A DNA stretch of 64,000 nt from Bombiscardovia apis (GTDB taxonomy: Bacteria; Actinomycetota; Actinomycetes; Actinomycetales; Bifidobacteriaceae): contig NZ_AP026800.1 of the NCBI RefSeq assembly GCF_033095945.1, positions 1,426,001 to 1,490,000 on the forward strand. Direction: 5' to 3'. Each line of letters starts with the position of its first letter. The stretch's first letter is position 1. The notes below the pieces were generated by a model. The model saw only the letters and a list, made by a program, of their open reading frames with translations. It had not been told where the DNA came from and made no database searches. Below, piece by piece: positions 50,147 to 58,528 of this stretch. The translations under genes were made by a program, and so were the position numbers.

Positions 50147-50949
50147 TGTTCCGCCGTTCTAAAGCTTCTCAAGTTTTCATGGTTGCCTTGGGCATCATCT
50201 TGGCCGCCATAGTACTCCTGCCGGTGCTCTACATTTTCATCGGCGCCTTTACTTTCAACGCCAGCGGAGTGGTCAGTAGACCTACTCTAGGCAACTTCAC
50301 GGCCGCCGCCAGCTCTATGCCTTTGGTACGGCAGGTGGGCAACAGCATTATCGTCACCGTCTGCCAGACCGTGGGCCAAATCGTGACTGCCATCTTGGCT
50401 GCTTACGCTATCGTGTTCTGCAATTTCAAGCGCCCTCAGCTGTGGATGATGATCTTCTTGCTCAGCCTAATGATTCCGGGCGAGACCACGATTCTCTCCA
50501 ACTATTTGAACGTGACCAACTGGGGCCTGATTGACACCATCCCCGCCATTTTCCTGCCCTACTTGGTGCAGGGATTCACCGTCTTCCTCTTCCGCCAAGC
50601 CTTCCGCTCCTTCCCTAGCGAGCTGCGCGATGCCTGTGCAATCGACGGCGCGGGTCACTTCCGCTTCATGTTCCACATTCTTCTGCCCATCACCAAGTCC
50701 ACCATCATCGCAGCTACTATTAACTCGGCTGTCTCGGCTTGGAATGGCTACTTTTGGCCCCTGTTGGTCACCAATTCCCCCGAGACGCGCACCATTCAGG
50801 TGGGCATTACCCAGCTTTCGGGCGCGGAATCCTCCCACATGGGTGTGGTTTTGGCCGGTTCAGCCATCGCTATTATCCCCACCTTGATCCTCACGCTGAC
50901 CTTCAACAAGTCTCTGCGCGGCATGACCGTTGCTGGAGGTCTCAAGTGA
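50146..50949 (+). CDS. ABC importer permease, UgpE-like
   Basis: 267 residues, six spans, EAA loop reading ELRDACAIDGAGHFRFMFHILLPI as in MalG/UgpE. It begins in the last codons of the UgpA-like gene. Partner of the permease upstream and the lipoprotein downstream (73-base gap). Confidence 0.87.
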   Translation: MFRRSKASQVFMVALGIILAAIVLLPVLYIFIGAFTFNASGVVSRPTLGNFTAAASSMPLVRQVGNSIIVTVCQTVGQIVTAILAAYAIVFCNFKRPQLWMMIFLLSLMIPGETTILSNYLNVTNWGLIDTIPAIFLPYLVQGFTVFLFRQAFRSFPSELRDACAIDGAGHFRFMFHILLPITKSTIIAATINSAVSAWNGYFWPLLVTNSPETRTIQVGITQLSGAESSHMGVVLAGSAIAIIPTLILTLTFNKSLRGMTVAGGLK

Positions 50950-51022
50950 TGCACGCTTACCCGGGCACTCAAAGCCACCAAGATTTGCCCCTACGGTAGG
51001 GGCGGAAATGAAAGGAAGAATC

Positions 51023-52367
51023 ATGCGTAAGCATCGACTCATTACTCTCGCCACCGCGGCACTTATCCCGGTTTTGGCACTGTCAGGATGCGGCAGCGCC
51101 AAAACCGAAAGCGCCTCCGACCCCCAAGGTGAACAAACCATCACCTTCTGGTACTCCAGCGCCGGCCATGCCGTGCAGACCATCAACGACCTTGTCTCCC
51201 AGTTCAACAAAGAGCACAAGGGCAAGATTCAGGTCAAGGCCTCCTACCAGGGCAGCTATACGGACGCACAGCAGAAGTTCTCTGCAGCTGTGCAGTCCAA
51301 GTCCACTCCTTCGATCATGCAGACCGATGAAACCTCTACTGCTTTCATGATTGACAGCAAGCAGACCACGCCTGTATACGAACTAGCCAAGGGCGACAAG
51401 TCCTTCGACGACTCGGTCATCCCCGAGATTGCCCGCAAGTATTACTCAGATTCCAAGGGTATGCTCTCCCTGCCCATGTCCATCTCGGTTCCCACGATGT
51501 ATATCAACAAGCAGCTGGCAACTGAAGCCGGACTCGACCCAGCTAATCCTCCCAAGACCTTCGACGAAGTTGTGGAGTGGGCCAACGCCATTCACGAGAA
51601 GACGGGCGCTTACGGCTACGGCCAGTATATGTCTGATTCTTGGATGCTCGAGGTGCTCTCCGCTACCGGCGGTCTCAACATTTGCACTCCTGACAACGGT
51701 CAGTCCGACAAGCCAGTCACCGGCATCAGCATGAGCTCCGACCTTCAGGTCAAGACCTTCCAGAAGATTGCCGACATGTTCAAATCGGGCGTCGGTCTCA
51801 ACACCGGTACCCGCAACACGGACGTGGCCGCCAACTTCTCTGCCAACAAGCTCGGCATCGCCCTCAGCTCCTCTGCCGCATACACGGTTATGGGGTTCTG
51901 CTGACAACGTTGCAGTCGCTCAGTTCCCTTCAACCTCCGACTCCAAGAAGGCCGGCCCGCTCCTCGGCGGCAACTCCCTCTGGGTCATCAAGGGCAACCA
52001 CAGTGAAGCAGAGCAAAAGGCCGCTTTCGAGTTCGGTAAGTACCTCATGAGCCCCCACGCTCAGGCCCTCTTCTCCAAGTCGACCGGCTACCTCTTCGCC
52101 AACAAGGACGCCGCTAATGAGCCCGAAGGCAAGGAAATTCTGACCGACAAGAACATCGACGTCTTCTACAAGCAGCTCAACAGCACCCCGCTCTCCAGCG
52201 TCTCCCTGGGCTGCCGTACCGGTGCCTTCCCGCTGATTCGTAAGGACGTTATCGCTTCCTTCAACGATGCCCTCAACGGCAAGGACATGAAGGACGCTAT
52301 GAAGGCCGCGGAAGACAAGGCCGCAACCGACATCGCTTCTTACAACAAGGCTGCAGCCAAGCAGTAA
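51023..52367 (+). pseudogene. UgpB-like solute-binding lipoprotein, frameshifted
   Basis: The first frame (ATG at 51023, AAAGGAAG five bases upstream) has a lipoprotein signal with lipobox LSGC at about residue 26 and runs through TITFWYSSAGHAV, YYSDSKGMLSLPMSIS and NPPKTFDEVVEWA, all UgpB-like, to a stop at 51904. The next frame continues as GSADNVAVAQFPSTSD and LGGNSLWVIKG to 52367. Reading three instead of four G at 51892-51895 joins them into one protein of about 447 residues. Either a one-base sequencing error or a recent inactivation. The operon is otherwise intact, so an error is plausible. Confidence 0.8.
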
Positions 52368-55028: not shown

Positions 55029-55227
55029 AATTCACGGTTGAACGGGTTCGGTGAGCAACACCGGCAGTTTCTTCCAGCTTGTGTAGTTCAACATCGCGTG
55101 AGCTCCGAAAGAGATGCTAGAGTAGGTAGAGATATGTTGGGGCTTAACGCGGTTGGGGAATTGCGGCGGGCCGAGGTTCGTCTATTGATAAGCGCTGCTG
55201 GGTGCGGCGCTGGTGGAGGGGTTTATT

Positions 55228-58200
55228 ATGCGTATGGGGCGCTCATTGCAGGCTATGGCTCTGGCCCTAGTCTTAACGGTCCTGGGGGGGGGGGTCCGCT
55301 AATTTAGCGCGACCGACCGCAGCTCACGCAGACCCCATAACCGACGCGCAAGGCTTCTCCCTCTCCCCCACCGAAGGCCCAGTAGAAGGCGGCAACGACG
55401 TCGCCATCACACCGCCGTTCAAGACCACAATTAAGTTTAAAGAAATACAAACCGGCAGTTGGTTTATCCTTGGCATTGACAGCGCCGGAAATCCATGGAC
55501 ATGGGGCTGGAATATCTACGGAAGTCTTGGCAATGGCAGCTCAGCTTCTTCTTACAATCTTCCTGTACGAGTAAGAGTTCCTACAAATGTAAAGTTTACT
55601 TCTTTCAGTGCAGGTGCATGGCATACCCTAGCTATCGACACAGACGGCAATCTCTGGACATGGGGACGCAATACATACGGTCAACTGGGAAACGGAAATA
55701 AAATAAATAGTAATGTACCAGTTCAGGTTCAAACACCCCCTGGCGTGAAATTTTCCAAAGTTAGTGCCGGTTGGTGGCATTCTATCGCTACAGATACGGA
55801 TGGCAATCTCTGGACATGGGGACACAATACATACGGTCAATTGGGAAACGGCACACAAACCGATAGCTTGACTCCTCAAAAGCTCTCAACTTCAGTACGT
55901 TTTTCTTCGGTCAGTGCCGGAGGCCAATTGTCAGTGGCTTTAGACCAAAATGGCAACGCATATGCATGGGGAAACAATAGAAACCAAGCTTTGGGTACTG
56001 GCAGTTTAAGCGCTTATGTAACAACTCCGCAGCTCGTTACAGGTGGATTACAGTTTAGCCAGATTAGCCCCAGTAAAGAGAGATACCCGTTTATCACAGC
56101 ACTCACCAAAACAGGCAATAAAGCATATGCATGGGGAAACAATGATTATGGTCAGCTTGGTGACGGCACTGTTACTACACGCACCGCACCATTCCCAGTG
56201 AATTCATCTCAGAGTTTCTCATCCATCAGCGCGGGCATGTGGCATGTGATGGCAATTGACACAACTAACCACGCATGGGCTTGGGGAGCTAACAGTAGCT
56301 TCAGCACAAGCACGCCTAGCGCTGGTCTAGTCGGAGATGGCACTGCCATAGACCGCCGAACACCTGTCCGAATTGCACCTCCCGCGGGTGCCTCTAGCGA
56401 TTTCGCTACCACCAGTGTTAGTTCAGGTATGACTATGTCAGCTTGCACCGGGAGCGATGGATTTGCGTATGCTTGGGGAAATAATTCACAAGGCCAGTTG
56501 GGAGATGGCACTACAGCTTGGCGTTTAACTCCTACGCGCATCGCCAACCCTGTAATTGCAGTTACGAGCGTCAGCTTCGACGGGATTGGGGCGGGGACGG
56601 TTACTCATGACACGGCTACTGATTTGTGGCATGTTAATGCGCCTCGGCATATGGTGCCAGGGAAGGTTAAGGTGCGGATTACTTGGACGCTGAATGGGCA
56701 GGCGCAGACTACGGTTTTGCTGGATTATGAGTATACGGTTTCGTATTCGGTGAGCTTTGATATGGCTGGGGCACCGGTCACACCGCCGGGGCAGCAGCAT
56801 GTGTTGAATGGACATAAAGCCTCGTGGCCTGCGGACGATCCCAAGTGGAACGGGTACTGGTTTGGGGGCTGGGAGCTCAACGGGAGCGCGTATGACTTTA
56901 CTCAGCCAGTGAACGGGAACATTACACTCAAAGCCCGGTGGAATTCGTATGCCTTTACCATTTCACCGACCAAGGGCGTCAGCCTGGGCGGCACGCACGT
57001 TACCGTAACACCGCCAGCTTTTGACGCGACGCTCACGCAGGTGAGCGCGGGCTGGTACCACTCGCTGGGCTTGGGGCGCGACGGGAAGGTCTACGCCTGG
57101 GGGCGCAACGATGCTGGGCAGTTGGGCGACGGTTCGGCCAGCAACCGCACTTCGCCGGTTGCGGTGCACACGCCGGGCGGCATGACGTTCACACAGGTGG
57201 TGGCGGGGCCGAACGACTCCTTTGCCCTAGCCACCAACGGCTCCCTCTACGCCTGGGGCTGGAACAGCAAGGGGCAGCTGGGCAACGGGAATACAGTAAA
57301 CCAATCCACGCCGGTGCTGGTGCCGGTGCCGGACGGGTCAACCAAGTACACAAAGATTATTCCAGGCCGCCAGCACACCCTGGCTGTGACCGACACCGGA
57401 GCACTCTACGCTTGGGGCGGCAACGATATGGGGCAGCTGGGCGAAGGCACGACTTTCGACTCGCTCACACCAGTCAAGGTCAAGCTGCCAACCGGCGTGA
57501 CGGGCTTTACGCAAATCAGCGCGGGCTCCTCCCACACGGTGGCTCTCGGCTCGGATGGGCGGGCCTACAGCTGGGGTTGGAACGGCTACGGGCAGCTGGG
57601 CTCGGCAGCCGTGGCGGTCGGCGGGCAGAGTTCCACGCCGGTTGCTGTTGACCTGCCGGGCGGGGTGTCGAGCTTCAAGCAGGTGGTGGCTAGCAACGAT
57701 TGGAGCCTAGGCATCAGTTCAAGCGGCCACATCTACACCTGGGGCTACAACGGTGACAACCAGCTCGGCGACGGCACCACCACCAACCGAAGCACCCCAG
57801 TCGCGCCCGCTCTGCCGGGCGGTCTCAGCTTCGACCAGGTGAGTGTAGAAGGAGACGGCACGGTGGCACTCGCCAGCTCCGGCGCAGCTTACGCTTGGGG
57901 CTGGAACGGCTACGGGCAGCTGGGAACCGGCAACCAGAACAGCCAAGCCAATCCTGCACAAATCACCCCTCCCGGCGGCGTAACCTACGCTAAAGTCATG
58001 GTCGGCAGACAACACAGCTTAGCCATCGACACCACCGGCAAAGTCTGGACTTGGGGAGACAACCAATACGGACAGTTGGGCAACGGTACTGGCGGATCAG
58101 CCGGAAACCTGAGTCTGAGCGCCGTGGGAGTCACGAATCCCAAGCTGGTCATCAGCAAGGTTCGCTTCGACTCCACCGATGGAACCGGCCTAACCCCTAA

Positions 58201-58528
58201 CTCCGACGGCACCTGGGGTGTAATCACCCCAGCCCACGCGGACGGCCCAGTCACCGTCACCATCTCCTGGAGCCTAGTAGGCACGCCGCAAACCGACTAC
58301 CCCATCAACTCCTACACCTACTTCACGGTCTTCAACCTGCCCAATGCCGGTTCAATCCCCCTAAACCGCCTAACCGGCGGCAGCCTCCTAGGCCTAAGCG
58401 CCCTAACCGGCCTCGCCTACGCCGGCTACACCTTGTCACGCAAACGCCGCCACCCAGGCCGCAACCGCAGACGCCGCCACCCAGGCCGCAACCGCAGACG
58501 CCGCGCACACGCACCACAAGCGAGCTAA
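55228..58528 (+). CDS. Cell-wall-anchored RCC1-repeat protein, switched off by an 11-G tract
   Basis: ATG at 55228 has GGAGGG seven bases upstream and opens a signal peptide (MRMGRSLQAMALALVLTVL) that reaches a run of 11 G (55284-55294) and then stops at TAA 55300. With ten G the frame continues SANLARPTAAHA-D (signal peptidase site) and stays open to 58528, about 1,099 residues. The mature part has about five N-terminal RCC1 repeats, an InlB-like/flg_new domain (VSFDMAGAP, around 56740-56950), then about eight more RCC1 repeats (WGWNSKGQLGNGN type). The C-terminus is NLPNAGS (LPxTG variant), a membrane span and a basic tail with a duplicated RHPGRNRRR. RCC1 propellers bind proteins; a role in attachment is inferred. 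The N-terminal repeats are more AT-rich than the C-terminal ones. Confidence 0.85.
55284..55294 (+). repeat. Poly-G tract (11 G) inside the signal-peptide codons
   Basis: Eleven consecutive G in the first 70 bases of the RCC1 gene. Each gain or loss of one base shifts the frame; 10 or 13 G give the open frame, 11 gives a truncated 24-codon product. This is the classic position and length for slipped-strand phase variation. The exact count may be affected by sequencing error. Confidence 0.85.
55646..55860 (+). repeat. Near-identical tandem RCC1-coding units
   Basis: GGCAATCTCTGGACATGGGG starts at 55646 and again at 55802, 156 bases (52 codons) apart, and similarity continues for about 60 bases around each. 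The unit equals one RCC1 blade. Such repeats can recombine to change blade number. Confidence 0.6.
58445..58498 (+). repeat. 27-base perfect tandem repeat in the RCC1 protein tail
   Basis: Two identical 27-base units (58445-58471 and 58472-58498) encode a doubled basic segment RHPGRNRRR after the membrane span. Expected to vary in copy number. Confidence 0.7.

Follow-up and report, generated by a model that had tools for sequence, protein, structure and literature searches.

We analysed a 64,000-nucleotide stretch of the Bombiscardovia apis genome (NZ_AP026800.1, positions 1,426,001 to 1,490,000 of the forward strand), hereafter the window, which holds a gene for an RCC1-repeat surface protein with a run of 11 G between its signal leader and its body. 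In our assessment the window gene likely belongs to a set of about forty contingency loci, switched by slippage of G tracts, in the genome of a bee-type bifidobacterium. The observation of a gene broken at its tract, from which the analysis started, is confirmed. The interpretation in the original prediction, that a poly-G tract switches the frame of a sortase-type RCC1 surface protein, is supported by the sequence comparisons presented here, and the switch is probably real and functional. The tract, its position, the gene family and the selection acting on it are firm; the present ON or OFF state of individual genes, as read from the assembly, is not.

As assembled, the frame that begins at ATG 55228, downstream of the Shine-Dalgarno-like GGAGG, encodes a leader of 24 residues before the stop TAA 55300-55302. 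Another frame runs open between 55277 and 58528 (1,083 codons), and 1,077 of its residues form the body after the tract. With 11 G, a length taken from one assembly, leader and body lie in different frames, and the cut that had been predicted between a ribosome site with its signal leader and the long frame is found at this place. The long frame had also been described as free of starts over 3.2 kb. Its openness stands, but an in-frame GTG at 55745 opens a 927-amino-acid open reading frame (ORF) inside the body, and the database protein (P0003) is that form, without a signal peptide. In-frame ATG, GTG and TTG codons are all absent from the body frame between 55295 and 55745, and a translation start at GTG 55745 was set aside, as an obvious Shine-Dalgarno sequence is absent upstream of it. 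The predicted signal cleavage site holds to the extent that it could be assigned by eye, between AHA and DP, after the tract. The tract is the sole homopolymer of at least 8 bases in the window; as a bare run it is only mildly improbable, with three overlapping G9 matches against 0.36 expected and 2 of 100 shuffles reaching three.

Evidence for switching comes from related species. The original prediction had proposed that tract lengths be compared across related genomes, and a single fixed length is not what they show: the orthologues of the window gene in Bombiscardovia nodaiensis KIM372 (78% identical) and in Bifidobacterium actinocoloniiforme (65% identical) carry, at the same tract position, 10 G and 12 G respectively, both in frame, against 11 G out of frame in the window gene. 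From the ATG to the tract, the leader differs from that of B. nodaiensis by one base. Among the tract-bearing genes fetched, seven reciprocal-best pairs were found with B. nodaiensis; five combine an out-of-frame G11 with an in-frame G10, one is in frame in both species and one out of frame in both. The ratio of non-synonymous to synonymous substitution rates (dN/dS) lies between 0.19 and 0.27 in all seven, and is 0.26 for the window gene and its B. nodaiensis orthologue. These orthologue lengths and frames, together with purifying selection on the body, are in agreement with the reading of the tract as a phase switch on an RCC1 surface gene. In the same orthologue comparison (L206), dS reaches 1.94 and 1.12 in the N-terminal half and 0.33 and 0.19 in the C-terminal half; since the N-terminal half is far more diverged, this suggests an exchange of propeller parts, as if the first propeller had been replaced.

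The layout of the window gene recurs throughout the genome, a single contig of 1,937,113 bases. A script examined the stretches around all 80 G tracts of at least 9 bases (both strands) and around the RCC1 genes, the latter taken from a possibly incomplete list of the best 150 of 497 candidate repeat matches scored. To be accepted, a gene needed a start codon 50-67 nucleotides before a G tract of at least 7, a hydrophobic leader in which an Arg or Lys comes early, and at least 120 codons open downstream. Forty genes show this layout, with a signal leader of about 19 codons, a G10 or G11 tract and a long frame; the start lies 56-57 nucleotides ahead of the tract in 37 of them by the script's choice, and in 38 when ATG 55228 is counted. 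RCC1-rich bodies are found in 28, and one more RCC1 gene (562283), the 29th, is interrupted further downstream. The other 11 are not RCC1 genes; among the six scanned, five encode leucine-rich repeats (LRR) with Flg_new and one Flg_new alone. An LPx[TAS]G motif occurs within the last 120 residues in 32 of the 40. As assembled, 31 genes have G11 and are out of frame (26 by one phase, 5 by the other), eight have G10 in frame and one has G11 in frame. The short peptides from out-of-frame leaders span 23-44 residues across the family.

Altogether 44 of the 80 tracts lie within such leaders, including four C11 tracts in the signal-like leaders of genes with less certain starts (242216, 246585, 384168 and 729204; sites among L127:4716-4728, L127:9086-9098, L131 and L142), of which 246585 is an RCC1 gene. 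A separate count of RCC1 genes gave at least 35 frames, two of which resemble the 3' parts of split genes, leaving about 33 genes; among the matches listed, 30 have a tract, a G run in 29 and C11 in one, with 22 out of frame and 8 in frame, and three whole genes have none. Codon usage points to selection on the tract, as GGG accounts for only 338 of the 4,133 Gly codons (8.2%) in the 40 bodies and yet the tract is a GGG run. One B. nodaiensis leader without a tract encodes the identical three Gly as GGA GGT GGA.

The genes also share sequence upstream of their leaders. The pattern TTGGG[GA][GA]A, picked after inspection of the sequences, lies within 130 nucleotides upstream of the start in 35 of the 40 family genes, against 0.8 expected. 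This GGTTGGGGAA box, about 75-115 nucleotides before most family starts, is common to RCC1 and LRR genes, and is a possible site for a common regulator or a possible RNA element. Of the 35 box-bearing leaders, 33 have the element TGNTANNNT 38-55 nucleotides ahead of the box, compared with 53 of 1,880 random windows that have the same span. A generic promoter and terminator scan gave nothing above shuffles and did not list the extended -10-like element at 55115..55123. We regard it as an evenly balanced question whether the extended -10, the GGTTGGGGAA box, the short signal leader and the poly-G tract form one modular cassette that stands before unrelated scaffolds, RCC1 propellers and LRR proteins. 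The result would be a combinatorial surface switch across the genome of this insect-gut bifidobacterial lineage, with at least 40 independent loci. In addition to the random frame switch, one common regulator may govern the whole set through the shared box.

Beyond B. apis, RCC1 frames with a tract of at least 8 number 22 of at least 36 in B. nodaiensis and 11 of at least 21 in a further genome (G024), both among the matches listed, and 6 of 7 in B. actinocoloniiforme. In G024 the tract (G10-G14) follows the hydrophobic part of the leader, some 80-180 nucleotides past the start. G15, G11 and G12 were seen at single loci of B. apousia and B. indicum; a G tract is absent at the one locus examined in Bifidobacterium sp. 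7101. The comparison within the genus covered 27 genomes including B. apis: 20 match the body at an E value of 1e-60 and have 12-98 tracts of at least 10 G (median 27), and the seven without such a match have 0-10. For the window gene a second strain was not found, P0003 being on one contig only. In a second assembly of B. actinocoloniiforme a deposited protein starts 91 residues into the frame that, in the assembly compared above, is in phase with its leader, and a longer form was absent on a renewed search; as a sign of another tract length it was given no weight, since gene callers can mis-start.

According to the mechanism that we propose, transcription and translation would begin normally, the latter at ATG 55228, and replication slippage would add or remove bases in the G tract of the signal-peptide region. 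A length that joins leader and body would give a full signal peptide, so that the RCC1 propeller protein could be exported and probably anchored by sortase; any other length would give the short peptide only, an all-or-none effect on export. Since every gene has its own tract, RCC1 and LRR surface proteins could occur in many combinations within a population. In an insect host the benefit would, in our view, more likely be adhesion bet-hedging or phage escape than evasion of adaptive immunity.

Several observations weigh against this mechanism or against its scope. The count of 11 G rests on one assembly of one isolate, and the tract lengths of B. apis pile up at 11 (11 tracts of 9, 22 of 10, 46 of 11 and 1 of 12). 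In B. nodaiensis (L197-L227, among the matches listed), each of the 22 RCC1 genes with a tract has exactly 10 G, while 6 of the 44 tracts of at least 10 in that genome, situated elsewhere, are longer. Such near-uniform lengths are narrower than free slippage might give; nevertheless, a colony survey of Campylobacter jejuni recorded a steep fall from 431 at G10 to 77 at G11 and 9 at G12 (in the part of PMC4965091 concerned), and a narrow range can thus be natural. A 9.8-kb duplication in B. apis (L145 and L146 against L147) differs by 37 insertions or deletions (indels) and 5 mismatches; the indels end at 840491, the remaining 5.6 kb being free of them, and two G/C runs differ (10 against 8 and 10 against 11). 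These indels look like long-read errors left in repeats. Moreover, the abundance of tracts does not depend on RCC1 genes alone: in ten genomes from other genera of the family, none of which has a match to the RCC1 body, 0-31 tracts of at least 10 G are present. The front ends of RCC1 and non-RCC1 genes reach at best 0.59 nucleotide identity, a value without a shuffle control. Finally, slippage at the RNA level could yield the same selection.

Three other explanations were weighed, all of which we consider improbable. In the first, which we judge unlikely, the tract is real but its length was miscounted in the assembly, and the gene is in frame and always expressed. The indel excess in the duplication, including the two G/C runs, and the peak at 11 are in favor of it, and Penno et al. 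warn, in the section concerned, that annotated G-tract lengths may differ from measured ones (PMC9187656). A uniform error would, however, shift all genes alike, yet 10 and 11 both occur and the genes need different lengths, being out by one phase or by the other; independent assemblies show lengths of 10-15; and a constitutive gene would have no reason to retain a run of the rarest Gly codon. The second explanation, to which we give a slightly smaller chance, is that RNA polymerase slips on the tract and places a fixed share of the mRNA in frame at any DNA length, expression being lowered and not switched. Long G runs can be slippery in transcription too, and this process would account for purifying selection on out-of-frame genes. 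On the other side, the orthologues differ in the length of the DNA tract itself, and length mixtures were measured at the DNA level at such tracts in B. breve, as reported in a passage of PMC9187656; RNA slippage could also operate alongside a DNA switch. The third, a decaying pseudogene with an incidental frameshift, is very improbable and was set aside because of the low dN/dS of the reciprocal-best pairs: some members are indeed split by further stops or frameshifts (565894/564226, 696487/695957, 562283/562175), but 1,083 codons are open in the window gene, its start, leader and anchor are intact, and the same tract recurs in 40 genes.

The protein that the proposed slippage switch would control has the domains of the original prediction, two RCC1 blocks, an InlB-like domain and an LPNAG anchor, each of which was recovered as a Pfam match or motif, with the InlB-like domain between the two blocks (Table 1). 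Pfam finds 13 RCC1 (PF00415) stretches in the body. An AlphaFold2 model from 27 sequences has a mean predicted local distance difference test score (pLDDT) of 86.8 and a predicted template modelling score (pTM) of 0.52. Its top structure matches in the PDB are UVR8 propellers (about 370 residues, root-mean-square deviation 2.0-2.2, template modelling score by target about 0.9, 0.92), followed by the RCC1-like domains of HERC, RPGR and RCC1, and the sequence search agrees. The LPNAG motif begins 63 residues ahead of the C-terminal end, and the hydrophobic helix is modelled at residues 1031-1048, within a low-confidence region. The Arg-rich C-terminal tail is encoded by a short direct repeat (RRHPGRNRRRRHPGRNRRRR) at 58451-58515. 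Elsewhere in the window, at 50930-52367, a gene for a sugar ABC (ATP-binding cassette) substrate-binding protein is split into overlapping frames (50930-51904 and 51768-52367) that seem to meet near 51890-51905, through a frameshift mutation or an assembly indel.

Table 1. Features of the window gene and its upstream region (window coordinates).
Feature	Position	Strand	Evidence
Extended -10-like element TGCTAGAGT, 38 nucleotides upstream of the GGTTGGGGAA box	55115..55123	+	Family comparison
Upstream box GGTTGGGGAA	55151..55160	+	TTGGG[GA][GA]A common to family leaders
Shine-Dalgarno-like GGAGG	55215..55219	+	Sequence
Leader frame as assembled (ATG 55228, hydrophobic signal-peptide part, stop TAA 55300-55302)	55228..55302	+	Reading-frame analysis
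11-G tract, proposed slippage switch	55284..55294	+	Sequence; 10 G and 12 G at the equivalent place in orthologues
Body frame, RCC1 surface protein, 1,077 residues and stop	55295..58528	+	Frame analysis, Pfam, model
First RCC1 propeller block, limits approximate	55442..56560	+	PF00415 matches; strands in model
Flg_new (Listeria-Bacteroides repeat, InlB-like)	56744..56935	+	PF09479, residues 484-547, 32.4 bits against a cut-off of 27
Second RCC1 propeller block, limits approximate	57040..58100	+	PF00415 matches; PDB sequence matches to UVR8 from residues 580-583
LPNAG sorting motif (58337-58351), hydrophobic helix, basic tail; putative anchor	58337..58525	+	Motif; helix in model

When RCC1 surface proteins of bee bifidobacteria were described in 2012 and 2015, they were reportedly given no function. 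If most RCC1 genes do stand behind a random switch, this would explain the retention of so many copies, and the surface would vary like a mosaic within each bacterial population. As antibody-type immunity is absent in insects, such a case would separate classical antigenic variation from escape from phages and bet-hedging in adhesion. For annotation, gene callers can miss such starts, as for the window gene, deposited as a 927-amino-acid protein lacking its signal peptide, and strain comparisons may mistake switch states for gene losses.

The features of a contingency locus seen in the window gene are a frame-setting homopolymer in the leader and a change of its length across species with a matching change of frame. 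The closest described system is the sortase pilus of B. breve, where, in the passages concerned, a G9-G13 tract between a short signal ORF and an LPXTG surface-protein ORF sets the ON or OFF state (Penno et al. 2022, PMC9187656); in one culture a G11 locus in a pilus gene was measured as 37% G11, 59% G12 and 3% G10, and a G10 locus was 93.4% G10. Both are bifidobacterial G tracts between a signal ORF and an anchored surface ORF. The B. breve tracts, however, belong to pilus operons with their own sortase, with one or two G-tract clusters per genome in the authors' table, whereas B. apis has about 40 scattered RCC1 and LRR genes. Membership of such a pilus cluster was rejected: no sortase is encoded in the window (eight sortase matches are found in the B. 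apis genome), and no pilin domain occurs among the Pfam matches of the window gene's protein, the body being RCC1.

The protein itself resembles the RCC1-Flg_new-LPxTG families of bee bifidobacteria, described in the relevant passages as RCC1 repeats, Flg_new and a cell-wall anchor in 7-24 genes per genome (Bottacini 2012, PMC3447821; Ellegaard 2015, PMC4449606). It shares with them the RCC1 propeller repeats, here in a UVR8-like model, the Flg_new domain and the C-terminal anchor of motif, helix and basic tail, and the B. apis genes are likewise multi-copy. Ellegaard et al. place Flg_new upstream of each RCC1 domain in the passage concerned (PMC4449606), whereas the window protein has a single Pfam copy. 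The terms phase variation, poly-G, frameshift and homopolymer do not occur in the main texts of the two papers, and regulation is not discussed in the passages concerned, whereas most of the B. apis members are fronted by G tracts.

More distant systems show the same logic. The opa genes of Neisseria gonorrhoeae encode paralogous surface proteins, each with its own leader-peptide repeat that makes or breaks the frame; according to the passages concerned, these are about 11 genes with CTCTT pentamers, for outer-membrane adhesins of a human pathogen (PMC3745409). With a G run as repeat and RCC1 as protein, the window gene was rejected as a member of the opa family, which works alike. C. jejuni has many G8-G12 tracts per genome, their frequency dropping steeply above G10, but its 29 loci are mostly enzymes that modify surface structures, with the tract mostly inside the main reading frame (passages of PMC4965091). 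In Gardnerella, also of the Bifidobacteriaceae, there is evidence that tracts vary, and they are associated with Rib, GA, InlB and LPXTG proteins; the difference is that a genome has a median of 20 G/C tracts, about 70% of which lie upstream of ORFs, and that RCC1 is not named in the passages concerned (PMC11287997). In the open-licence PubMed Central literature no paper joining RCC1 proteins with switching was found among the matches listed. The RCC1 families of bee bifidobacteria and the G-tract switches of bifidobacterial pili are known separately, and the B. apis set extends a mechanism of a known kind to a new setting, a new scale and a new protein class.
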